Shown here in pieces: positions 39,368 to 50,562 of a DNA stretch of 64,000 nucleotides; the first letter of the stretch is position 1, and every line of letters begins with the position of its first letter. The notes under the pieces are model-generated. The model did no database searches, was not told the DNA's origin, and saw only the letters and a list, made by a program, of their open reading frames with translations. A program made the translations under genes and the position numbers. Source of the stretch: Desulfuromonas sp. AOP6 (GTDB lineage Bacteria > Desulfobacterota > Desulfuromonadia > Desulfuromonadales > SZUA-540); assembly GCF_009731355.2 (NCBI RefSeq), contig NZ_AP022810.1:2508001-2572000 (forward strand), written 5' to 3'.

Positions 39368-40120
39368 TCACAGGCGGCCAAGCAGGCGCAGCAAACCGTC
39401 CAGCGCCGTGTAGGGGTGCGGCGGACAACCGGGGATATAGAGGTCGACGGGGAGCAGATCACCGAGGCCGTTGTGACACTCGGGACTGCCGCGGAAAGGG
39501 CCGCCGCCAATGGCACAGGCGCCGGAGGCGATGACCAGCTTCGGCTCGGGCACGGCGGCGTAGGTGTCGAGCAGGGCGCTCTTCATGTTTTCAGTGACCG
39601 GCCCGGTGACCAGAATGCCGTCGGCATGGCGCGGCGAGGCGACGAACTGGATGCCGAAACGGCCCAAGTCAAAGACCAGGGTGCCGAGCACGTTGAGGTC
39701 GGCTTCGCAGGCGTTGCAGCCGCCGGCGGAGACCTGGCGCAGCTTCAGAGAGCGCCCGAACAGTTTTTTCATGCGGGCGTCGAGGGCTTCCGCCAGCGGG
39801 TAAACGTCCCCATCGACCACCAGCCCTTCACGGCGGCGAGACGCCAGTCGATAATCGCGGCAGAAGGAGAGGCCGCCATGAGTGCAGGCCGTACAGTCGG
39901 CGCAGAAGAGGCAGAGCCCCATATCGACTGCTACTTTGCCCTCCTGCCGTTTCACGGCGCCATAGGGACAGCCACGCAGGCAGTCTTCACAGCCCGACGG
40001 GCAAAGTTCCGGCTGCAGGCGGGGCAGACCACGAAAACGCTCCGGCAGCACCGGCTCTTCCTTGGGATACTTGCCCGTTCGATAGCCCTGACGAAAGCGT
40101 TCGGCAATAATTTTCAGCAT
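39368..40120 (-). CDS. Ehr complex: fused HyfH-like ferredoxin and HyfI/NuoB-like small subunit
   Basis: A 250-residue fusion. Residues about 35-85 form a polyferredoxin part with Cys40, 44, 47, 51 (Cx3Cx2Cx3CP) and Cys70, 73, 76, 79. Residues about 115-250 match NuoB/HyfI, with Cys135 and Cys138 (GGCNACEAD), Cys in ASGACAIGG and Cys in PGCPPHP ligating the proximal [4Fe-4S] cluster. In E. coli hydrogenase 4 these are two genes, hyfH and hyfI. The subunit would pass electrons between an unknown soluble partner and the HyfG-like large subunit. ATG 40120 removes an unrelated upstream extension. Last gene of the operon; it faces the selenoprotein gene. Confidence 0.9.
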   Translation of the reverse strand: MLKIIAERFRQGYRTGKYPKEEPVLPERFRGLPRLQPELCPSGCEDCLRGCPYGAVKRQEGKVAVDMGLCLFCADCTACTHGGLSFCRDYRLASRRREGLVVDGDVYPLAEALDARMKKLFGRSLKLRQVSAGGCNACEADLNVLGTLVFDLGRFGIQFVASPRHADGILVTGPVTENMKSALLDTYAAVPEPKLVIASGACAIGGGPFRGSPECHNGLGDLLPVDLYIPGCPPHPYTALDGLLRLLGRL

Positions 40121-40140
40121 CGCTCGTTCTCCATCCCCAC

Positions 40141-41652
40141 TTACAGATCGAAGCCGCAGTAGGAAAGATTGAAACTCTTGTTGCACAAGGGAAAGTCGGA
40201 TATCTGCTCCTCGCGCAGGGCCATGGCCAGGCCGTTCCAGTTGCGGAAGGAGGGATCCACGACCTTGTAGCGCGAAAACCGGCCGGCGGCATCGGTCAGG
40301 GCCACATGCACGATTTCGCCGCGCCACCCCTCCGTCAGCGATACGGCCAGACTGTCCGCTGCCAGCGGGGCCATCTCCGCCCGCGCCGCGCCGTCCGGCA
40401 GCCGGCTGAGCCAGTAACGGATCTGCCTGAGGGAGTCGTAGATCTCCCGTCGGCGCACATGGGCCCTGGCGAAGACATCCCCACCCTCTTCCAGAACGAC
40501 GTGATCGAAGTCATCGACATAGGCACCGGCAGGATGATGGATACGGGAGTCGATGGCCAACCCGCAGGAGCGGGCCGCCATGCCCACGAGGCCGAGGGAC
40601 TCGGCGTCCTCGGTGGCGACCTTCCCCGTCCCCTCCAGTCGGGCCAGCGCCGAGGGACTATCGAAGAAGAGTTCGATCGCCCCGCGCGTATCGCGCGCGA
40701 TCACCGCCAGACGCTGCAAAAGATGGGCGACCAGCACCGGCTCCGCGTCGAATCCGACCCCGCCGGGACGGATCATCCCGCGCCCGAAGCGACTGCCGCA
40801 CAGTTCGGCGCTCAAGTTGAGATAGTCGCCGCGGATGCGGCCGCAGAAGCTCGCCGTCGGCAGAAAGCCTACATCCCCGGCGAGAGCGCCGATGTCGCCG
40901 ACATGGTTGGCCAGGCGCTCCAACTCCAGCGCCACCGCCCGCAGCACCTGCCCTCGCGGCGGCACCGGGCAGCCGCCCAACGCCTCCAGCACCTGGCAGT
41001 ACGCGGTGGCGTGGCCGATGGTGGTGTCCCCAGCCGCCGCCTCCAGCTGGTGCAGGGTACTGGCATGAGGGCCACCACGCAGAAGGGCTTCGAGTCCCCG
41101 ATGCTGAAAGCCGAGGGAGATCTCCAGATGCATGACCTTTTCGCCATGACACTGAAAGCGAAAATGCCCCGGCTCGATCACCCCGGCATGCACCGGCCCG
41201 ACGGCGACTTCGTGCACCTCTTCCCCTTCGACCCGGTAGAACTCCATATCCCCCGGCACGGGATGAGCGCTCCCCGCCCGCCCCCAGGCATCCCGTCCGG
41301 GCACCCAGGATGAATGGAAGCGCACCGGCTTGAACCAGGGGTGCCCTTCCGGCAGCACGCCGAACTGTTCGGCGAATTCCCGCTCAAAGAGGTGCAGCTG
41401 GGGAATTTCCGGAGTCAGGGAGGGGAAACGACTGCCGACCCGCGACCGTAGCAGATGCAGCTCCCCCTTCCAGTCGTGAGCCACCAGGGCAAAGAGTTCC
41501 ACCGCGCCGTCCGCCGCCAAACGCCCGAAGTAGGCCGACACCCTCCCCTGCTGTTCGAGATCGGCCTTCAACCGGGAGCCGAAAACCTCGTAGTCGAGAA
41601 CGGGGATCTCATTCAACTGTACAGTCCCGCCATTTTTCACGATGGGCATCAT
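40141..41652 (-). CDS. Ehr complex: HyfG-like (NuoC-NuoD fusion) large subunit without Ni-Fe site
   Basis: 503 residues. The first 150 are NuoC-like (QLHLFEREFAEQFGVLPEGHPWFKP) and the rest NuoD/hydrogenase large-subunit-like. Hydrogenases of this group use RxCGxC and DPCxxC to bind nickel. Aligning by eye to HycE, the first pair is Ala and Thr (AAAGDTTIGH) and the second is Ser and Asn (VVDPSFRNW), so all four ligands are gone. The tail DFPLCNKSFNLSY is typical of energy-converting-hydrogenase-related proteins. The subunit probably forms the quinone- or partner-facing cavity. Start ATG 41652 overlaps the hyfF-like stop (ATGA); a longer open frame upstream is antisense coding noise. Confidence 0.9.
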   Translation of the reverse strand: MMPIVKNGGTVQLNEIPVLDYEVFGSRLKADLEQQGRVSAYFGRLAADGAVELFALVAHDWKGELHLLRSRVGSRFPSLTPEIPQLHLFEREFAEQFGVLPEGHPWFKPVRFHSSWVPGRDAWGRAGSAHPVPGDMEFYRVEGEEVHEVAVGPVHAGVIEPGHFRFQCHGEKVMHLEISLGFQHRGLEALLRGGPHASTLHQLEAAAGDTTIGHATAYCQVLEALGGCPVPPRGQVLRAVALELERLANHVGDIGALAGDVGFLPTASFCGRIRGDYLNLSAELCGSRFGRGMIRPGGVGFDAEPVLVAHLLQRLAVIARDTRGAIELFFDSPSALARLEGTGKVATEDAESLGLVGMAARSCGLAIDSRIHHPAGAYVDDFDHVVLEEGGDVFARAHVRRREIYDSLRQIRYWLSRLPDGAARAEMAPLAADSLAVSLTEGWRGEIVHVALTDAAGRFSRYKVVDPSFRNWNGLAMALREEQISDFPLCNKSFNLSYCGFDL

Positions 41653-43073
41653 GCGTTCACCTCCAGCAGGGCGGCAGCGTCCCGCAGCAGGCGCTGCAGG
41701 GGTTCGGGCAGGTAGAGTCCCAGCACCAGCACGACCAGCAGCAGAAAGAGCGGCGGCGCCACCAGCGGCAGCCGGTCCCGGAAATGAACCTGCTCCACCT
41801 CCGCCTCCCCCTGAGTCACGGCCAGCACCGTGGCCCCCATACCGATAAAGATGACGGCCAGCAGCACCAGCACCGTAGCGCCGACCCACATCTGACCGCT
41901 GGCGAACATGCCGCGCAGCATGGTGAACTCGCTGAGAAAGGGGCCGAAGGGGGGCGAGCCGGTAATCGCCAGAAAGCCGGCCAGAAAGATGGCGCTGGAG
42001 ACGGGCAATACCGACAGCGCGCCCCGCACATCCTGCAGGCGCTTGCTGGCAAAGGCCCGATGAATATTGCCGGCACAGAGGAAGAGACAGCCCTTGGTCA
42101 TGGCATTGTTGACCAGATGCAGCAGGGCGCCGAAAGTGGCCAGGCCGCCGATACCGACCCCCACGGCCAGCAGCCCCATGTGCTCGACGCTCGAATAGGC
42201 GAGCAGACGTTTGATATCGCCCTGCCGGACAATGAAAATGGCCGCCAGCAGCAGGGAGAGCAGGCCCATGCCGAGCAGCATCTGCCGGGCCAGGGCCAGA
42301 TCGCCGGCCGCTCCCATTAACTGCACCCCGCGCAGGATGGCGAGAAAAGCCACAGAGGTCAGACCGCCGGCCAGCAGGGCGCCAACCAGACCAGGCGCCT
42401 CGCCGTAGGCATCGGGCTTCCAGCTGTGCAGAGGCGCCAGCCCCATCTTGGTGCCGAAGCCGACCAGCAGAAAGACGAAACCGGCATGCAGCCAAGGCTG
42501 GGCCAGATTCGGCCCCGCCGCCAGCAGGTCATCGAGCTGCAGACTGACCGGCACGCCGTTACCGAGAGCCGCATAGGCTACAAAGAGGATACCGACCATG
42601 GCCAGCGCGATGCCTACCGAGCAGAGAATGAGATATTTCCAGGTCGCTTCGATGGAAAGGCGGTTGCGATTGTAATAGATCAGTGGGGCGCTGGCGATGG
42701 TGGTCGTCTCCACCGCCACCCACAGCAGACCGAGATGGCGGGCCGCCACGGCCAGCGTCATGGCCGCGAGAAAGACCAGCAGGCAGGCGACCATCAGGCG
42801 GTTCCCCCGCTCCGCATGCAGGTTGAGGTATTCGACGGCGTAGATGGAACAGGCCAGGTAGAGCAGACTGGTCACCAGCAGGACAAGCTGGGAGAGGGCA
42901 TCGAGGCCGAGCCAGGGAGTCGGCAAAGAGGGAGCCTGACTGACCACGGTGACGGCCAGCGCGAAGTGAAGGACGCCACTGACCGGCAGCAGCCAGCTTC
43001 GCACCCGGAAAGAGGGTAGCGCCACGGCCAGGGCGGCCAAGGCCAGAGGAAAGAGAATCAGCAACATCAGCAT
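41649..43073 (-). CDS. Ehr complex: HyfF-like antiporter-type membrane subunit
   Basis: 474 residues, about 13-14 membrane segments. Proton-channel residues of MrpD/NuoM-type subunits are visible: Glu in LWVAVETTTIAS, Lys in GFGTKMGLAPLHSW and Lys in NNAMTKGCLFL. It resembles HyfF, the antiporter-like subunit at one end of hydrogenase-4-type complexes. Translationally coupled to the large subunit downstream and four bases after the hyfE-like stop. Whether protons or sodium move is not shown by the sequence. Confidence 0.9.
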   Translation of the reverse strand: MLMLLILFPLALAALAVALPSFRVRSWLLPVSGVLHFALAVTVVSQAPSLPTPWLGLDALSQLVLLVTSLLYLACSIYAVEYLNLHAERGNRLMVACLLVFLAAMTLAVAARHLGLLWVAVETTTIASAPLIYYNRNRLSIEATWKYLILCSVGIALAMVGILFVAYAALGNGVPVSLQLDDLLAAGPNLAQPWLHAGFVFLLVGFGTKMGLAPLHSWKPDAYGEAPGLVGALLAGGLTSVAFLAILRGVQLMGAAGDLALARQMLLGMGLLSLLLAAIFIVRQGDIKRLLAYSSVEHMGLLAVGVGIGGLATFGALLHLVNNAMTKGCLFLCAGNIHRAFASKRLQDVRGALSVLPVSSAIFLAGFLAITGSPPFGPFLSEFTMLRGMFASGQMWVGATVLVLLAVIFIGMGATVLAVTQGEAEVEQVHFRDRLPLVAPPLFLLLVVLVLGLYLPEPLQRLLRDAAALLEVNA

Positions 43074-43077
43074 CGTG

Positions 43078-43716
43078 TTATTCCTTCAAAACGGACAGTC
43101 GGGTGGTGTCCACGGTGGAGAACTCCCGGTTGATCTGGTTGATCACAATCCCCATAACAAAAACAGCGACGAGCAGATCGAGCAGCACCCCCGCTTCCAC
43201 GACCAGGGGCATCGCCTCGCTGAGCAGGATGCTGAAAATGAAGATACCGTTTTCCAGCATCAGATAGCCGAGCACCTGGGTGATGGCCTTGCGCCGCGTC
43301 ATCAGCAGCATAAACCCGGCAAAGAGGGTGGCCAGGGAGGTGGGGACGTAGAGTCCGCCCTGATGTTCCGGCAGCAGCGGCAGAAAATCAGCGAAGATGA
43401 AGGCCCCGGCCGTGAGCATCGCCCCGATGATCAGGGTGGGGACGAAACCGATAAGTGCCTCGACCTCGCGACGAATGCGTACCTCACGGATGGCCCGCAG
43501 CAGGAGCCAGGGAATGAACACCCCCTTGAGGATAAAAGCGGTGGCCGTCAGCATCAGGGTATGCCAGGAAATACCGTGGGCCAGGCACGGCAGCAGCGCA
43601 ATGAGGGCGCCTTGCAGGGCCACAACCCGGATGCAGGCCACCAGACGCGCGCTGCCCAGGGTGAAGAAGTTGATGAGAATCACCAGCAGCAGGCAGAGGT
43701 TGCTCAATTCAATCAT
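43078..43716 (-). CDS. Ehr complex: HyfE-like membrane subunit
   Basis: 212 residues, six or seven membrane segments. HyfE-like proteins combine NuoJ/NuoK-related features; the KAITQVLGYLMLENGIFIF segment (about 132-150) with Glu in a membrane helix is the NuoK-like core. Lies between the hyfC-like gene (12 bases) and the hyfF-like gene (4 bases), as in hydrogenase-4 operons. Confidence 0.88.
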   Translation of the reverse strand: MIELSNLCLLLVILINFFTLGSARLVACIRVVALQGALIALLPCLAHGISWHTLMLTATAFILKGVFIPWLLLRAIREVRIRREVEALIGFVPTLIIGAMLTAGAFIFADFLPLLPEHQGGLYVPTSLATLFAGFMLLMTRRKAITQVLGYLMLENGIFIFSILLSEAMPLVVEAGVLLDLLVAVFVMGIVINQINREFSTVDTTRLSVLKE

Positions 43717-43728
43717 GGGTCCTAACTC

Positions 43729-44640
43729 CTAACGAAGCACCAGCACCAGGGCAAATATGGAGATCAGCATGGTGCCGATGAGCACCTGGGGTACGCGCAC
43801 CAGGCGCAGGCGGGCCATGGTCGACTCCACCACGCCGATCAGCACGGCCAGCAGCAGCAGGCCACCGAGGTAGACGCCCCCGTCCAGCAGCGGGCTGCCC
43901 GTCTCAAAGGGCAAAGCCAAACGGACGACAAGAGAGCCCAGCACCATCAGTTTGAGGGCGGCGCCGTACAGGACCATGCCGAAAGCCGGGCCGCTGTGAT
44001 CAAGCACCATGACCTCGTGGATCATCGTCAGCTCAAGGTGGGTATTGGGGTCGTCGAAGGGAATGCGGGAATTCTCCACCAGCAGCACGACAAAGAGGCA
44101 GACGGTGATCAGCCCCAGCGAAGCCGACGCCACCGTCCAGGAGGAACCCAGGCCGGCCCCAAGCAAAGCCCCGAGGGAAAGGCCATCGGCCAGACGGGCG
44201 AGCACAATCAGGGAAAAGAGCAGGGTCGGTTCGGCGAGACAGGAAAAGGTCACCTCGCGCGCTGCCCCCATCCCCTCGAAACTCGAACCCGTATCCAGGG
44301 CCGCCGAGGCCACAAAAAAACGGGACAGCCCGAAGAGATAGACAAAGAGGATCAAATCTCCCTGGAAAGAGATGGGCGCGGGCAGGGCGCCGAAGGGGAG
44401 CAGAAGCGAGGCCAGAATCGGCACGGCCAGCCCGACCACCGGCCCGGCCAGAAAGACCCAGGTCGTCGTGTGGCTCAGGACGAACCCCTTGCGCCACAGG
44501 CGGGCCAGGTCATAGTAGGGTTGCAGCAGGGGTGCTCCCCGCCGGCCGGCGAACAGAGCCTTGGTGCGGTTGATCACCCCCTGCAGCAGAGGCGCAAACA
44601 GCAGCAGAAGCACCAGGTGGACCAGAACATTGACAAACAT
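43729..44640 (-). CDS. Ehr complex: HyfC/NuoH-like membrane subunit
   Basis: 303 residues, about eight membrane segments, homologous to NuoH, HycD and HyfC, the subunit that anchors the peripheral arm. Recognisable parts are AGRRGAPLLQPYYDLARLWRK near 31-51, and the loop NSRIPFDDPNTHLELTMIHE near 195-214, rich in acidic residues that line the entry cavity in complex I relatives. Ten bases separate it from the preceding antiporter-like gene. Confidence 0.92.
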   Translation of the reverse strand: MFVNVLVHLVLLLLFAPLLQGVINRTKALFAGRRGAPLLQPYYDLARLWRKGFVLSHTTTWVFLAGPVVGLAVPILASLLLPFGALPAPISFQGDLILFVYLFGLSRFFVASAALDTGSSFEGMGAAREVTFSCLAEPTLLFSLIVLARLADGLSLGALLGAGLGSSWTVASASLGLITVCLFVVLLVENSRIPFDDPNTHLELTMIHEVMVLDHSGPAFGMVLYGAALKLMVLGSLVVRLALPFETGSPLLDGGVYLGGLLLLAVLIGVVESTMARLRLVRVPQVLIGTMLISIFALVLVLR

Positions 44641-44650
44641 CGAAGCCTCC

Positions 44651-46630
44651 TCAACCGCAGGCGATTACCATAAGCAGGGTCAGCAGGGTCAAAGCGATAT
44701 AGAGCAGATAAAAAGCGGGTCTGCCGTTCTGCAGAAAACGCCGCAGCAGGGTGAAAAGCCAGGCCAATCCCTGACTGAGCGGCAACAGGAAACGGTCGAG
44801 CACAGCGTCCGGCGTGTGGCTGGAAAAGGCCGTCTCTGCCGGAAAAAGCCCCTTGGGTGGCTGTTCATGGCGACTTGTCCACAGCCCACCCCGGAAGAGT
44901 CCAACCAGCAGGTCAGCAAAGGAAGAGGCGCTGTACTGCATGCGAGGGGCCGGGAATTGGTAACCGCACCCCCAGGTAGCCACCCGCGGGGCCCCGGCAT
45001 GGCCGCGTCGTTGCAGCCAGAGCCACAACCCGGCCATCACCACCAGCAACAAAGCAGCCACCAGGCTGAGACGGGAGAGCGGCGCCAGCGGCGCCTCCAG
45101 TTCGAGACCGGCGACCTGCGCCGACCAGACCGTCGCGGCCCGCTGCAGCAAGGGGGCCAGGGTCCAGGGGAGCAGGCCGATCCAGATGCAGGCCGTCAGC
45201 AGAGCGAGCATGGGCAGGCGCATGGACCAGACCGCCGGCTTGGCCGTAGCCGCCGCGGGGCAGCGGGGTTCTCCCAAAAAGACCACGCCGAAGACTTTGA
45301 CAAAGCAGGCCACCGCCAGAGCGCCGATGAGAGCAAGGACCGGGGCAGCCAGCACGGCCCATGGGCTGACGGGGCCGGTCCCCTGCAGCGAATCGAAAGC
45401 GCCCAGGTAAATCAGCCACTCACTGACAAAACCGTTGAGGGGAGGCAGCCCGCAGATGGCGACGGCACCGCCCAAAAAGCAGACGGCCGTCCAGGGCAGA
45501 CGCCGGAACAGCCCTCCCATGTGATCCATCTCGCGGGTCCCTGTGGCCTGGATGACCGACCCCGCCGCCAGGAACAGGAGCGACTTAAACAGGCCATGAT
45601 TGACCGTGTGCAGCAGCGCACCCGAAATCCCCAGCAGGACCATGGTCGGCTGCTCAAAAGTGCGCCCGAGCAGAGCTACCGCCAGGCCGATGACAATGAT
45701 GCCGATATTCTCAACACTATGGTAGGCGAGAAGCCGCTTGATATCGTGCTGGGCCAGGGCCAGGGCCACGCCCAGCACGCCCGATATGGCTCCGAGCACT
45801 AGCAGGCCCATCCCCCAGCTCACCGGAATATCGGCATAAAAGGAGGTCAGACGCACCAGGCCGTAAATGCCGGTCTTGATCATGACCCCGGAGAGTAGCG
45901 CCGAAGCATGGCTGGGGGCTGCGGCATGAGCGCCCGGCAGCCAGATATGCAGAGGCATGATGCCGGCCTTGAGACCAAAACCGAAGAGACCGAGCAGAAA
46001 GATGGCCGTGCCGGTACCGGCAGAGGCGATGGAGGCCGCCGCGGGAAAGGCGAAGGAGCCGACCACGGACGCCAGCAGGGCGAAGAGGGCAAAGAGGGCC
46101 AGGGTGCCCGTGTGGGTCGCCGCCAGATAGATCAGACCGGCCCGCCGGCTGTCCGCCTTGTCATCTTCGGTGGTAATTAGAAAGAAACCGGCCAGGGCCA
46201 TGGCTTCCCAGGCGAAGAGGAACAGCAAGCTGTTTTGCGCCGTCAGCACCAGCATGAGAGCGCCGGCGATCAGGCCATAGAAAATGCGTAACTTTTTGGC
46301 GCTGGCCCCATGCCGTCGCTGGGGCCAGTAGCCGAGCCCATAGACCGCGCCGGCACTGACCACCAGAAAGAGCGGCAGGAGAAACAGGGCGGAAAGGGCA
46401 TCGAGCTGCAGCACGAATTCGGCACCGGGCACCCCCCAGGGCAGCCGCAGGCGATTCGTGGCCGGGGCCAGCAGGGCCATGATTGCGGCGGCCAGACCGC
46501 AGGTCGTTCCCAGCAGGGTCAGCAGGCAGCTCAAGCGCTCTCCCCAAAGGGCCTGGCGCCGGGCCATCAGGCCGGGAAAACCGGAAAAGAGCAGCAGCAG
46601 GATCCCGGTCAGGAATAATCCCATGGTCAT
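44651..46630 (-). CDS. Ehr complex: second HyfB/HyfD-like antiporter-type subunit
   Basis: 659 residues, about 15 or 16 membrane segments. Channel residues are present: Glu in LFAWEAMALAGFF, Lys in GFGLKAGIMPLHIW, Lys in SGVMIKTGIYGLVR and Lys in NHGLFKSLLFL. ATG 46630 overlaps the stop of the preceding hyfB-like gene (ATGA), which sets the start; upstream in-frame sequence is not part of the family. The C-terminal third has an extra cytoplasmic or peripheral stretch (PRVATWGCGYQFPAPRMQYSASSFADL-type, in pieces) seen in HyfB. A tandem duplicate of the upstream gene by architecture. Confidence 0.9.
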   Translation of the reverse strand: MTMGLFLTGILLLLFSGFPGLMARRQALWGERLSCLLTLLGTTCGLAAAIMALLAPATNRLRLPWGVPGAEFVLQLDALSALFLLPLFLVVSAGAVYGLGYWPQRRHGASAKKLRIFYGLIAGALMLVLTAQNSLLFLFAWEAMALAGFFLITTEDDKADSRRAGLIYLAATHTGTLALFALFALLASVVGSFAFPAAASIASAGTGTAIFLLGLFGFGLKAGIMPLHIWLPGAHAAAPSHASALLSGVMIKTGIYGLVRLTSFYADIPVSWGMGLLVLGAISGVLGVALALAQHDIKRLLAYHSVENIGIIVIGLAVALLGRTFEQPTMVLLGISGALLHTVNHGLFKSLLFLAAGSVIQATGTREMDHMGGLFRRLPWTAVCFLGGAVAICGLPPLNGFVSEWLIYLGAFDSLQGTGPVSPWAVLAAPVLALIGALAVACFVKVFGVVFLGEPRCPAAATAKPAVWSMRLPMLALLTACIWIGLLPWTLAPLLQRAATVWSAQVAGLELEAPLAPLSRLSLVAALLLVVMAGLWLWLQRRGHAGAPRVATWGCGYQFPAPRMQYSASSFADLLVGLFRGGLWTSRHEQPPKGLFPAETAFSSHTPDAVLDRFLLPLSQGLAWLFTLLRRFLQNGRPAFYLLYIALTLLTLLMVIACG

Positions 46631-48624
46631 GGCACCCCCCTCCCGGCCCAGACACCCCAGGCCAGCAACAGGGTACAGGCCATGAAAATATAGAGCAGAT
46701 AGACATGCAGTCGCCCCTGCTGCAGCCAGCGAAGACGCACGCACCAGTGGGTCACCCTGGCGATGCCGGGCAGGAACAGACGGGTCAGTACCGGGTCGAG
46801 GGACTGCTGGCTTAGGCCTATGCGCCCTGGAAAAACCCCTCGCAACAGCGGGCGATTTACCTGCGGAGCGAGGAGGTGAGGAACCAGGTGGCTCTGGGTG
46901 AGCTCGGCATAGGCCTCACCCGTGTACTCGACCCGGGACGAGGAAAAGGCAAAGCCGCAGCTCCAGGTCCCGCGACGAGCGACAGGCCGGTGATGACGGA
47001 GCCAGAGAAGGAGGGCGGCGATAACCAGAAGGCTGAGCCCGATGAGACCGTGGAACTGACCCAGTTTCCCCACGCGCAACAGCACCGGGGCCAGGGCCGC
47101 CTGACCGCCGGGAACGAGCTGCTCAAGGGGCAAGGCCAACAGAGACAAGGCGCCCTGAGGGAACACGCCGACCAAAAGACAGCCGGCCAGCAGCACTCCC
47201 ATAGGGCCCAGCAGGGACAGGGAAGACTCCCGTGCCTGCTCGGCGGGCAGACTGCGGGGGCTGCCCAGCAGAACAATCCCGGCCAGACGGGTAAAGGCCA
47301 GCACGGCCAGGGCGCCGACCAGGCCGAGCAGACCGACCAGCAGCAGGGAGAGCAGGCCACTGAAACCGGCATCCAGCACGCCTTCCTGCAGCAGCCCCAG
47401 GTAGATGAGCCATTCACTCACCAGGCCGTTGAAGGGCGGCAGGGCGGCGATGGCCAGACAGCCGCCGAGCAAGAGGCCGCCCGTCCAGGGCATGCGCTTG
47501 AGCAAGCCGCCGAGCTGATCCATATCCCGCGTTCCCGTGGCCTGCAGAACGCTGCCGGCGCCCAGAAAGAGCAGCCCCTTGAAGAGGGCATGATTCCAGA
47601 TGTGCAGCAGGCCGCCGGCAAACCCGAAGAGGGCCAGCGTGGGATGCCCGTTGGCCTGCGCGAAAAAGCCCAGGCCCAGGCCGAGAAAGATGATCCCCAC
47701 ATTCTCCATGGTCGAGTAGGCCAGACACCGTTTGATATCCCTCTGAAAATTGGCCATGACAATGCCATAGAGGGCCCCGGCCCCACCCAGGGCCATGAGC
47801 ACGACGCCGGCCAGCGGCAACGCCGACGGCAAAAAGCTGCCGGCCCGCAGGATGCCGTAGATACCCACTTTCACCAGTACCCCCGACATCAGGGCCGAAA
47901 CATGGCTGGGAGCGGCGGGATGGGCATCGGGCAGCCAGACATGCAGGGGAAAGAGACCGGCCTTGATACCGAAACCGGCCAGGGCAGCAACATACAGCAA
48001 GCCGGTAGTCTTGGAGGAGAGCTGCGCCAGGCCGGTAAAGTCCGCGAAATCGAAACTGCCGCAAATGGTGCCGGCCGCCACAAAAAAGGCCAGCAGCAGC
48101 ACCAGTCCCAGATGGGCAACAACCAGATAAAGCCAAGCCGCCTCCCTCACCTCGGCCTGACGATGCTCGAAGGCCACCAGGAAAAAAGAGGTCAGCGTCA
48201 TGACCTCCCAGGCCATGAGGAAGAGCACCGCATTGGCGGAAACAACCACCAGCATCATGGCCGCAACCATAAGATTGAGAAAAAACCAGTGCGGCCCCAG
48301 GGCGGCCGGGTGGGCGTGTCCCTGCAGATATCCCGGTGCGTACAAGGCGCAGAGCAGGGCCACAAGGCACATGGGCAACAGAAAAAAGGCAGCGAGGGGA
48401 TCAAGAGAGAGGAGCAGGTGACCACCGGGCACTCCCCAGGCCAGCTCCCAGGATTGCGGTGTGGCACTGCGCAGAGTCGTGAGGGCGGCCGCCAGCCCGG
48501 CCAGGGATCCAGCCACCAGCCCGACTGCACCGAGGCTGGTGGTCAGCCGTGGTCGACAAAAGCTGAGCAGGGCAGCAAACGCCGAGGCGACGAAAATCAA
48601 AAGAGCCAGCAGCAGCAGATTCAT
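46627..48624 (-). CDS. Ehr complex: first HyfB-like antiporter-type subunit
   Basis: 665 residues with about 15 or 16 membrane segments, NuoL/HyfB-like. Glu in FLMAWEVMTLTSFF, Lys in GFGIKAGLFPLHVWLP, Lys in SGVLVKVGIYGILR and Lys in NHALFKGLLFL match channel residues of complex I antiporter subunits. The C-terminal RGTWSCGFAFSSSRVEYTGEAYAEL region is HyfB-type. It begins 29 bases after the regulator gene on the same strand, so regulator and complex form one operon. With the neighbouring subunit and HyfF it gives three antiporter-like subunits. Confidence 0.9.
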   Translation of the reverse strand: MNLLLLALLIFVASAFAALLSFCRPRLTTSLGAVGLVAGSLAGLAAALTTLRSATPQSWELAWGVPGGHLLLSLDPLAAFFLLPMCLVALLCALYAPGYLQGHAHPAALGPHWFFLNLMVAAMMLVVVSANAVLFLMAWEVMTLTSFFLVAFEHRQAEVREAAWLYLVVAHLGLVLLLAFFVAAGTICGSFDFADFTGLAQLSSKTTGLLYVAALAGFGIKAGLFPLHVWLPDAHPAAPSHVSALMSGVLVKVGIYGILRAGSFLPSALPLAGVVLMALGGAGALYGIVMANFQRDIKRCLAYSTMENVGIIFLGLGLGFFAQANGHPTLALFGFAGGLLHIWNHALFKGLLFLGAGSVLQATGTRDMDQLGGLLKRMPWTGGLLLGGCLAIAALPPFNGLVSEWLIYLGLLQEGVLDAGFSGLLSLLLVGLLGLVGALAVLAFTRLAGIVLLGSPRSLPAEQARESSLSLLGPMGVLLAGCLLVGVFPQGALSLLALPLEQLVPGGQAALAPVLLRVGKLGQFHGLIGLSLLVIAALLLWLRHHRPVARRGTWSCGFAFSSSRVEYTGEAYAELTQSHLVPHLLAPQVNRPLLRGVFPGRIGLSQQSLDPVLTRLFLPGIARVTHWCVRLRWLQQGRLHVYLLYIFMACTLLLAWGVWAGRGVP

Positions 48625-48653
48625 GACATCAGGTACCCGCCTTCAGGAATCCT

Positions 48654-49331
48654 TCATTTTTGGCAACAGTCCTCAGCCCGGCCCAGCGCCGCAAAAATCT
48701 CCTCCCGGCTCCCCTGTTCCGTCAGGGTCTTGCGGAAGGCGTGGTCATGCAGAACAAAGCCGAGGAGAGAAAGGAGATGCAGATGCGCGCGCAGTGTGGG
48801 GGCGATCAGGGTAAACAGAATCTGGACGGGGATGCCGTCGAGGGCGTAAAAATCTACCGGCTGCTCAAGAAAGCACAATGTCACCGTCGGTCGGGTGACA
48901 TGCAGCAACGACGGATTGCGCGGATGCGGCAGGGCGATCCCTTCGCCAATGCCGGTGGAAGCCAGCTTTTCGCGAGCGATGAGCACCCGGCACAGGTAAT
49001 CGCGATCGACCTCATCGGGCAGTCGCAGATGTTCCACCACATCAGCCAGCACCTCGTCCCGACTTTTCCCCTCCAGGCGGTAGAAGATTCCCCCGGCCTC
49101 CATCGCCTCGGTCAGGCGCGGCAGCGGCAGGGCATCGCCTTCCGGCTCGGACAACAGTTCGGGCGATATGCCCATGCGCCGCGACGTCGCCCATTCCAGC
49201 AGCTCGGCCCGATTAAAGCGATAACTCTCATGGACCTTGTAGGCCGGCACGATCTCCTGCTTGATCCAGCGATAGATGGTCTTTTCGGAGACCGACAGCA
49301 ACTTGGCGGCGTCTTTAACAGAAACGTTCAT
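48654..49331 (-). CDS. Excisionase-type HTH regulator fused to a PTS EIIA(Ntr)-like domain
   Basis: 225 residues. Residues 1-50 are an excisionase-family helix-turn-helix (VKDAAKLLSVSEKTIYRWIKQ, then PAYKVHESYRFNRAELLEWA). Residues about 75-222 are an EIIA(Ntr)/fructose type domain; GIALPHPR (about 140-147) contains the histidine that receives phosphate in this family. ATG 49331 has AGGTG upstream; GTG 49340 is the alternative. It is the first gene of the Ehr operon and its promoter carries repeats suited to autoregulation. Phosphorylation of the histidine could link expression to PTS(Ntr) state; that is inference. Confidence 0.85.
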   Translation of the reverse strand: MNVSVKDAAKLLSVSEKTIYRWIKQEIVPAYKVHESYRFNRAELLEWATSRRMGISPELLSEPEGDALPLPRLTEAMEAGGIFYRLEGKSRDEVLADVVEHLRLPDEVDRDYLCRVLIAREKLASTGIGEGIALPHPRNPSLLHVTRPTVTLCFLEQPVDFYALDGIPVQILFTLIAPTLRAHLHLLSLLGFVLHDHAFRKTLTEQGSREEIFAALGRAEDCCQK

Positions 49332-49406: not shown

Positions 49407-49533
49407 CAGCTTTATGGGCCCGAAAGAGATATTTATAGAAAAATCCATATAAACTTCTTCTCGACAAAGGCTTCCCCCGATGACAACCTTCTGCTACAGT
49501 CCTCGCCTGGCAGGCAAAACAGAGGAAATCGTC

Positions 49534-50562
49534 ATGCTCCCCCCCTCCCCCAACACCCAAATGTTCTGCACCCAACCCTTCGACTGGTGCGAGATTCACC
49601 CCGACGGCCAGGTCTTTCTGTGCTGTCCGGCCTGGCTGAAGACCTCCGTCGGCAACCTCCTGCACGCCCCCCTCGACCAGATCTGGAATGGCGAGCGGGC
49701 CCGCCAGGTGCGCAAGGCCATCCTCGAAGGCAGCTTTTCCGGCTGCAACCGCCAGCGCTGCCCCCGCCTGGCCAGCGCCACCGCACCGGTCATGCCCCTG
49801 GCCCAGGTGACCGATCCGGACATCCGGCAGGCACTGCAGTCTGGTGACACCACCCTGACCTATGGCCCCAGGACCCTCAACCTCTGCCACGATCGCAGCT
49901 GTAATCTGGCCTGTGCCAGTTGCCGCCGCGACTTTCACCTGGCGCAGGGAACCGCACTGGAAACCGTCGCTGTCCTGACGGAAAAAATTCGCCGCCAAGC
50001 GGGCCCCTCGGCCGAGACCCTGATCCTCAGCGGCACCGGTGATCCCTTCGGCAGCCCGACCTACCGGGATTTGCTGCAGAACTTCGATGCCGGGGATTTC
50101 CCCCGGCTGAAAAGCATCCGTCTGCACAGCAACGGCCAGCTCTGGAACAAATCCTTGTGGGAATCGCTGACGCCGATTCATCCCTATGTGCAGACCGCCG
50201 AGATCTCCATCGACGCCGCCACGGCGGCGACCTACACCCTTAACCGTCGTGGCGGGGATTTCCGGCTGCTGCTCGACAACCTGCGCTATATTGCCGGACT
50301 TCCCATTGCCCTCACCCTCAGCTTCGTCGTCCAGACCAACAACTACCGGGAGATGCCGGCCTTCGTCGCTCTGGCCCACAACCTGGGCGCCGCCGTCTAT
50401 TTCAGCCAGCTGGTCAACTGGGGCACCTTCAGCCGTCAGGAATTTGGAGAGCGTGCCATACACCGGGCCGATCATCCGGATCACGCCGACTTTCTCCTCG
50501 TGCTGCGATCACTCGTCGACACTCCCCGGGTCGATCTCGGCAATCTCAGTTCCCTGCTGTGA
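49534..50562 (+). CDS. Radical SAM protein with N-terminal SPASM domain
   Basis: 342 residues. The first 80 look like a SPASM auxiliary-cluster domain: Cys12, Cys19, the DGQVFLCC pair at 30-31, VGNLLHAPLDQIWNGER and Cys71/Cys76. A radical SAM domain follows with CNLACASC (Cys123, Cys127, Cys130) and an LILSGTGDPFG segment in place of the GGE strand. SPASM normally lies C-terminal, so the order is inverted. ATG 49534 has GAGGAAA upstream and gives a compact start; ATG 49480 would add 18 residues. It is divergent from the Ehr regulator. The substrate, perhaps a peptide or protein, is unknown. Confidence 0.75.
   Translation: MLPPSPNTQMFCTQPFDWCEIHPDGQVFLCCPAWLKTSVGNLLHAPLDQIWNGERARQVRKAILEGSFSGCNRQRCPRLASATAPVMPLAQVTDPDIRQALQSGDTTLTYGPRTLNLCHDRSCNLACASCRRDFHLAQGTALETVAVLTEKIRRQAGPSAETLILSGTGDPFGSPTYRDLLQNFDAGDFPRLKSIRLHSNGQLWNKSLWESLTPIHPYVQTAEISIDAATAATYTLNRRGGDFRLLLDNLRYIAGLPIALTLSFVVQTNNYREMPAFVALAHNLGAAVYFSQLVNWGTFSRQEFGERAIHRADHPDHADFLLVLRSLVDTPRVDLGNLSSLL

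Follow-up and report, generated by a model that had tools for sequence, protein, structure and literature searches.

Gene content of the ehr locus and its upstream companion

The window analysed here, a stretch of 64,000 nucleotides from the 3.27-Mb single-contig genome of Desulfuromonas sp. AOP6, contains seven minus-strand open reading frames spanning positions 39368–48624. They encode, in 5' to 3' order, the subunits B1, B2, C, E, F, L (G) and S (H and I fused) of an Ehr (Ech-hydrogenase-related) complex, a family reportedly known since Coppi 2005. Three of these subunits are antiporter-like, namely the HyfB-type B1 (46627..48624; 665 aa; conserved E140, K221 and E404), a second HyfB-type subunit B2 (44651..46630; 659 aa; E142, K221 and E404) and the HyfF-type F (41649..43073; 474 aa; E122, K209 and E382), and all three retained the TM5 Glu, TM7 Lys and TM12 Glu, as the initial annotation of this DNA had described for their channel residues. 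The membrane arm also includes EhrC (43729..44640), a HyfC/HycD/NuoH-type anchor with a modified E-channel entry (N199, H201), and EhrE (43078..43716), a HyfE-type subunit with a NuoK-like C-terminal part (NCBIfam hydrogenase 4 membrane subunit, 3.9e-23). The 503-aa large subunit EhrL (40141..41652) combines NuoC-like and NuoD/HycE-like regions, and the 250-aa EhrS (39368..40120) is an N-terminal ferredoxin-type domain fused to a NuoB/HyfI-like small subunit with eight plus four cluster cysteines.

Pfam and NCBIfam matches comprised three Proton_antipo_M domains, NADHdh, an Oxidored_q2-like domain, Complex1_30kDa with Complex1_49kDa, and Oxidored_q6, and the hydrogenase-4-like subunit set of Ehr (antiporter-like subunits, anchor, HyfE-like subunit, large and small subunits) is complete at the locus. 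Together with the 4-nt ATGA overlaps at the B1/B2 and F/L junctions, these matches confirmed the gene order B-B'-C-E-F-G-HI given previously, which had been read as translationally coupled; the remaining gaps between ehr genes measure 4–20 nt. EhrL aligned to E. coli HycE over residues 75–498 (phmmer E 2e-45), which together with at least 577 relatives confirmed in GTDB genomes excludes a chance match. The family is widespread, and its named loci span over a dozen phyla. Elsewhere the host genome encodes NuoCD- and NuoD-type proteins at two further sites, as well as HypD and RnfC.

An additional gene, 29 bp upstream of ehr B1 and outside the span first annotated, encodes a putative operon regulator with HTH_17 and PtsN-like PTS EIIA domains (48654..49331, minus strand; Pfam HTH_17 1.5e-14, PTS_EIIA_2 2.7e-26), and the transcription unit probably starts at this gene. 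Of 101 Ehr loci examined (the window, 20 loci from the same order and 80 named records of many phyla), 57, belonging to several phyla, have a relative of this HTH-EIIA gene nearby, mostly directly upstream and on the same strand. Across 277 genomes of the class, 139 possessed both Ehr and HTH-EIIA, 34 Ehr only, 15 HTH-EIIA only and 89 neither (odds ratio 24; Fisher p 6e-28, uncorrected for relatedness), and the counts within the order for the same categories were 45, 9, 10 and 72. Among 59 full-length sequences, 92% carry His at the residue aligned to the EIIA phosphorylation site (H139), and 22 of the 24 Ehr genomes checked for HPr encode it. From the domains of this protein we infer a role in transcriptional regulation; the literature searched contained no published link between EIIA and Ehr and no description of such a companion for known Ehr systems. 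Where Ehr is absent, HTH-EIIA precedes a DUF1275 membrane-protein gene in G010 and a SulP permease gene in G033, so the family may have a broader role in ion transport.

The neighbourhood of this companion varied among relatives. A DUF1275 membrane-protein gene (~244 aa) lies between HTH-EIIA and ehr B1 in genomes G001, G002, G015 and G021 (loci L023, L025, L028, L131 and L127), at the place where the window holds merely 29 bp (48625–48653), and in G010 the HTH-EIIA gene still adjoins it without Ehr. A radical SAM/SPASM gene (49480–50562), divergent from the HTH-EIIA gene, was not among the recurring neighbours at other Ehr loci, which besides HTH-EIIA comprised two further gene groups only, at scattered positions.

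Ligand positions, pocket conservation and phylogeny of the large subunit

The C-terminal block of EhrL aligned without gaps to E. coli HycE, HyfG and NuoCD (MAFFT), and none of the four cysteines that bind the Ni-Fe site in group 4 [NiFe] hydrogenases (CGxC and DPCxxC) is left: HycE C241, C244, C531 and C534 correspond to A207, T210, S497 and G500. In this alignment the L1 equivalent comprises codons A207-G208-D209-T210 (41023..41034, minus strand), and the true L2 equivalent lies at the extreme C-terminus in codons N495–L503 (NLSYCGFDL; 40144..40170, minus strand), where HycE DPCYSC is matched by NuoCD DFVMSD and Ehr NLSYCG. The initial annotation was thus right that all four cysteines are lost and that L1 became Ala/Thr, but its Ser/Asn reading of L2 had been placed on DPSFRN (residues 466–471; 40240..40257, minus strand), a motif common to NuoD and HycE in which DPSFRNW of EhrL pairs with AATYANW of HycE and TPSFAHL of NuoCD. 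A correct alignment restoring the four ligands had been named as grounds for rejecting that annotation, and the corrected one restores none. Five group 4 hydrogenases of the same bacterial order showed CxxC and DPCISC at the L1 and L2 positions, indicating that ligands in Ehr would have been detected. EhrL ends at L503, opposite HycE R537, and lacks, like NuoCD, the C-terminal tail that extends beyond this position in HycE and HyfG; all 101 Ehr large subunits terminate in DL.

Analysis of the 101 large subunits showed that G208, D209, E160, H250, E403, R444, N491, K492, S493, S497, Y498, G500 and D502 are invariant, and N495 was present in 100 of the 101. The 80 named loci had been retrieved by the patterns PVHAG[IV]IE and DFP[LV][CN]NKS, so that these two stretches are biased, but the key positions 207–210, 444 and 495–503 fall outside both patterns, and the same pocket conservation occurred in 40 further sequences of the class retrieved by profile alone. 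As judged from these sequences, the Ehr pocket substitutions are themselves fixed, being near-invariant across many phyla.

Residue roles described for E. coli formate hydrogenlyase (PMC9474812) were used to read this pocket. The proton Glu of the beta1-beta2 loop is retained (HycE E193, EhrL E160), as are the His, Glu and Arg of the proton route (H250, E403 and R361) and the canopy Arg (R444), while canopy Asp529 is replaced by Asn. In EhrL, I159 takes the place of the complex I quinone His (NuoCD H224), and G208 that of the Tyr adjacent to E272. Residues mapped over 95 EhrC orthologues showed that the positions of HycD E199 and E201, which are Glu also in NuoH, hold Asn (or Thr/Ala) and an invariant His (95/95), and that R108, E130, E138, E203 and E206 are retained, with E189 nearly always so. 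Most of 99 EhrS sequences possessed the eight ferredoxin-type and four proximal-cluster cysteines, the latter with hydrogenase-type CxxC spacing. Structure prediction, which had been proposed as a way to see what fills the former Ni-Fe cavity, gave an AF2 model of EhrL with a good core; the pocket loops 150–169 and 485–503 fell below pLDDT 50, and the cavity could thus not be read from it. Fold searching did no more than confirm HycE/NuoCD-like folds (HycE TM 0.81).

Phylogenetic analysis of 48 large subunits, suggested earlier to separate group 4 from Ehr clades, placed the window sequence in a single Ehr clade with 100/100 support and a long stem. This clade consisted of type 1, to which the window belongs, the divergent sequences L038 and L039, which form a pair, and a second type approximately 35% identical, with HycE/HyfG, Ech-type hydrogenases and NuoD-type proteins outside. 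Geobacter-type sequences from G. argillaceus (L064) and Geomonas (L087) fell in the same clade, which together with the absent Ni-Fe ligands bears out the assignment to Ehr. The locus shares with the known Ehr of Geobacter (GSU0739-0745) and Nitrospirales the same seven-gene hydrogenase-4-like set and the absence of Ni-Fe ligands, and no essential difference was found in a comparison made through named Geobacter sequences, with GSU0739-0745 itself left out. The tree is unrooted and the program warned of long branches; the description of Ehr as having lost its Ni-Fe site therefore holds for the absence of ligands, with the direction of change likely rather than proven. On this tree, Ehr and complex I are likely to have lost Ni-Fe independently. 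Type 1 members mix phyla, for example a 'Treponema' metagenome-assembled genome (L058) that groups with one from Planctomycetota (L051), which suggests lateral spread of Ehr.

Two genomes carry tandem type 1 and type 2 Ehr operons (G024, L026 3500–20000; G037, L037 741–16301), the type 2 operon having a single B subunit and approximately 35% identity to type 1, and in G037 an HTH-EIIA gene sits between the two operons. Several genomes of the order also encode a NuoD-like protein of ~370 aa without Ni-Fe cysteines (L141, L142 and L144–L146) that branches beside NuoD.

Selection, maturation and candidate electron partners

Comparison to a same-genus genome gave dN/dS values of 0.018–0.177 across all eight genes (neighbouring aroC, 0.126), calculated by the Nei-Gojobori method from this one genome pair at unsaturated pS values of 0.18–0.31. 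All genes are under purifying selection, and Ehr is thus no relic, at least in this lineage. A published account of long-term electrode strains took missense mutations in two ehr genes as relaxed selection and described Ehr as a non-functional complex under drift (PMC13194489); the low dN/dS values speak against that claim, again for this lineage, as do the intact state of all the genes, the near-invariant pocket across phyla and the detection of Ehr proteins in G. sulfurreducens (PMC7894505). A decayed, non-functional hydrogenase is hence largely contradicted here and has become hardly credible. Ehr also did not show the Hyp dependence of group 4 [NiFe] hydrogenases: several near-complete genomes that lack HypD retain it (G115, a single contig, and G034, G124, G112, G091 and G020), indicating that it does not need Ni-Fe maturation, and no Hyp genes were found in the flanks of the 101 loci.

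This independence bears on formate as electron donor. Formation of H2 from formate via Ehr has been suggested (PMC7894505), and a related published hypothesis for Riflemargulisbacteria (PMC6349859) proposes a formate dehydrogenase, encoded in trans, that docks on EhrS and supplies electrons from formate, which Geobacter proteomics hints at, as Ehr subunits of G. sulfurreducens were more abundant with formate (PMC7894505). The absence of a need for Ni-Fe maturation argues against H2 production, which would require the very ligands that Ehr lacks, and unlike in formate hydrogenlyase, where an FdhF-type module is encoded along, an FdhF-like gene occurred near only one of the 101 loci; a docking formate dehydrogenase is accordingly improbable in our estimate. 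In complex I the NADH module is likewise encoded along, and NuoE/F/G genes occurred near three of the 101 Ehr loci, two of which represented separate complex I operons. None of the gene groups recurring in the flanks was a dehydrogenase family, the probes by name having covered FdhF, NuoE/F/G and Hyp, and the earlier remark that no NADH, formate or CO module stands beside Ehr is true of this locus and, for formate and NADH, of nearly all 101. The sole locus with both FdhF-like and NuoG/NuoF-like genes nearby, on the opposite strand, belongs to the divergent Ehr type (L038 10926–13994, G008).

Another candidate is a ferredoxin:menaquinone oxidoreductase with a rebuilt quinone site in place of the complex I His/Tyr pair, passing electrons from ferredoxin-reducing oxidoreductases to menaquinone with ion pumping. 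NuoD is the best NCBIfam match of EhrL, the host genome possesses two MqnA/D-type genes, and 26 of 49 named Ehr genomes have a menaquinone pathway, of which 24 carry MqnA/MqnD (PF02621) and two MenD above cut-off. The other 23 showed neither pathway, counts that rest on drafts of unstated and possibly limited completeness and allow for other quinone routes, and included all Elusimicrobia (3/3), Spirochaetes (3/3), Riflebacteria (2/2) and Omnitrophota (2/2) tested. Rectinema cohabitans, a congener of one Ehr host, is described as obligately fermentative and lacking genes for respiration (PMC6052044), and Ehr-bearing Riflemargulisbacteria likewise yielded no complete quinone pathway (PMC6349859). 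Pocket residues were identical in the 23 hosts without known menaquinone pathways, and no pocket residue separated hosts with and without a pathway; the best single separating position, 483, is uncorrected and confounded by phylogeny. The 23 hosts with an unchanged pocket, the missing quinone His/Tyr (I159, G208) and the canopy Asn together disfavour a quinone link as the general function, and menaquinone is an unlikely general substrate if one pocket serves one substrate. We therefore regard the ferredoxin:menaquinone assignment as unlikely too. Of the 'ferredoxin- or quinone-linked ion pump' proposed initially, the ferredoxin part appears reasonable from the wire of eight plus four cysteines and the quinone part is disfavoured as a general function. 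Among other markers examined, UbiA (PF01040) was too general as a quinone test (45/49 positive) and was replaced by MqnA/D and MenD, a NuoF-type domain (PF10589) was present in most hosts without a menaquinone pathway and hence uninformative, and Rnf was rejected as a functional alternative to Ehr, the presence of the two being independent.

Reduction of sulfane sulfur (polysulfide), as in archaeal MBS, was weighed as well. MBS and Mbx resemble Ehr as non-hydrogenase members of the superfamily with antiporter modules and a ferredoxin-fed iron-sulfur wire (in Ehr a probable one), and MBS likewise lacks Ni-Fe and quinone ligands (PMC7684303). However, MBS as described there uses a three-Cys, open-iron proximal cluster with a shortened loop, keeps two MbsL cysteines and has no proton Glu, and Ehr is opposite on all three counts, with a four-Cys, CxxC-spaced proximal cluster, the proton Glu and none of these large-subunit cysteines. 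MBS-type chemistry is thus unsupported, and we consider it very improbable.

Proposed mechanism and meaning of Ehr

Comparison to the better-known relatives outlines what sets Ehr apart. It shares with E. coli Hyf/Hyc the subunit types, the fold, the proton Glu and route and the four-Cys proximal cluster, but differs by the loss of the four Ni-Fe ligands, the canopy Asp to Asn change, the missing cleavable C-terminal tail and the lack of formate dehydrogenase or maturation genes alongside. With complex I (NuoD/NuoB/NuoH) it has in common the large-subunit family and fold, the logic of the membrane arm and the absence of Ni-Fe, and it differs by the missing quinone His/Tyr and canopy Asp, the lack of an NADH module, and an EPGHFR loop and CxxC proximal cluster of the hydrogenase type.

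The best explanation, in which we place middling confidence and to which the loss of ligands at all four positions with same-order positive controls contributed, is that Ehr would be an intact ferredoxin-linked, ion-translocating membrane oxidoreductase of the complex I/group 4 hydrogenase superfamily with a proton-coupled substrate in the former Ni-Fe pocket. A soluble low-potential carrier, judging from the domain type most likely ferredoxin, would dock on EhrS at its ferredoxin domain, with electrons crossing the three-cluster iron-sulfur wire between this carrier and a small substrate or cofactor. The latter would sit among D209, N491, K492, N495, S497 and Y498 together with R444 and E160, and its proton-coupled chemistry may drive the passage of H+ or Na+ through subunits C, F, B2 and B1, or be driven by it. 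H2 is not this substrate, and menaquinone bound in the manner of complex I is an unlikely one. The HTH-EIIA protein probably links operon expression to a PtsN-type phosphorelay.

Published accounts still call the function of Ehr unknown (PMC12342949, PMC10284858). To the known family this analysis adds a corrected motif, signs of constraint, the finding that Ehr does without Ni-Fe maturation, a case against a general menaquinone partner and a conserved HTH-EIIA companion. We would only tentatively go further and suggest that Ehr could represent a third catalytic type of the complex I superfamily, beside the Ni-Fe (H2) and quinone types, in which a fixed Asp/Lys/Asn/Ser/Tyr pocket would act, by redox chemistry coupled to protons, on a small molecule or cofactor new to the superfamily, common to respiring and fermenting phyla and expressed through a dedicated HTH-EIIA (PtsN-type) protein. 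The question of Ehr is narrowed to a complex that is no hydrogenase, no relic and probably no menaquinone reductase in general; residues for mutation are now named in its pocket, and the HTH-EIIA companion may reveal the conditions that induce it.
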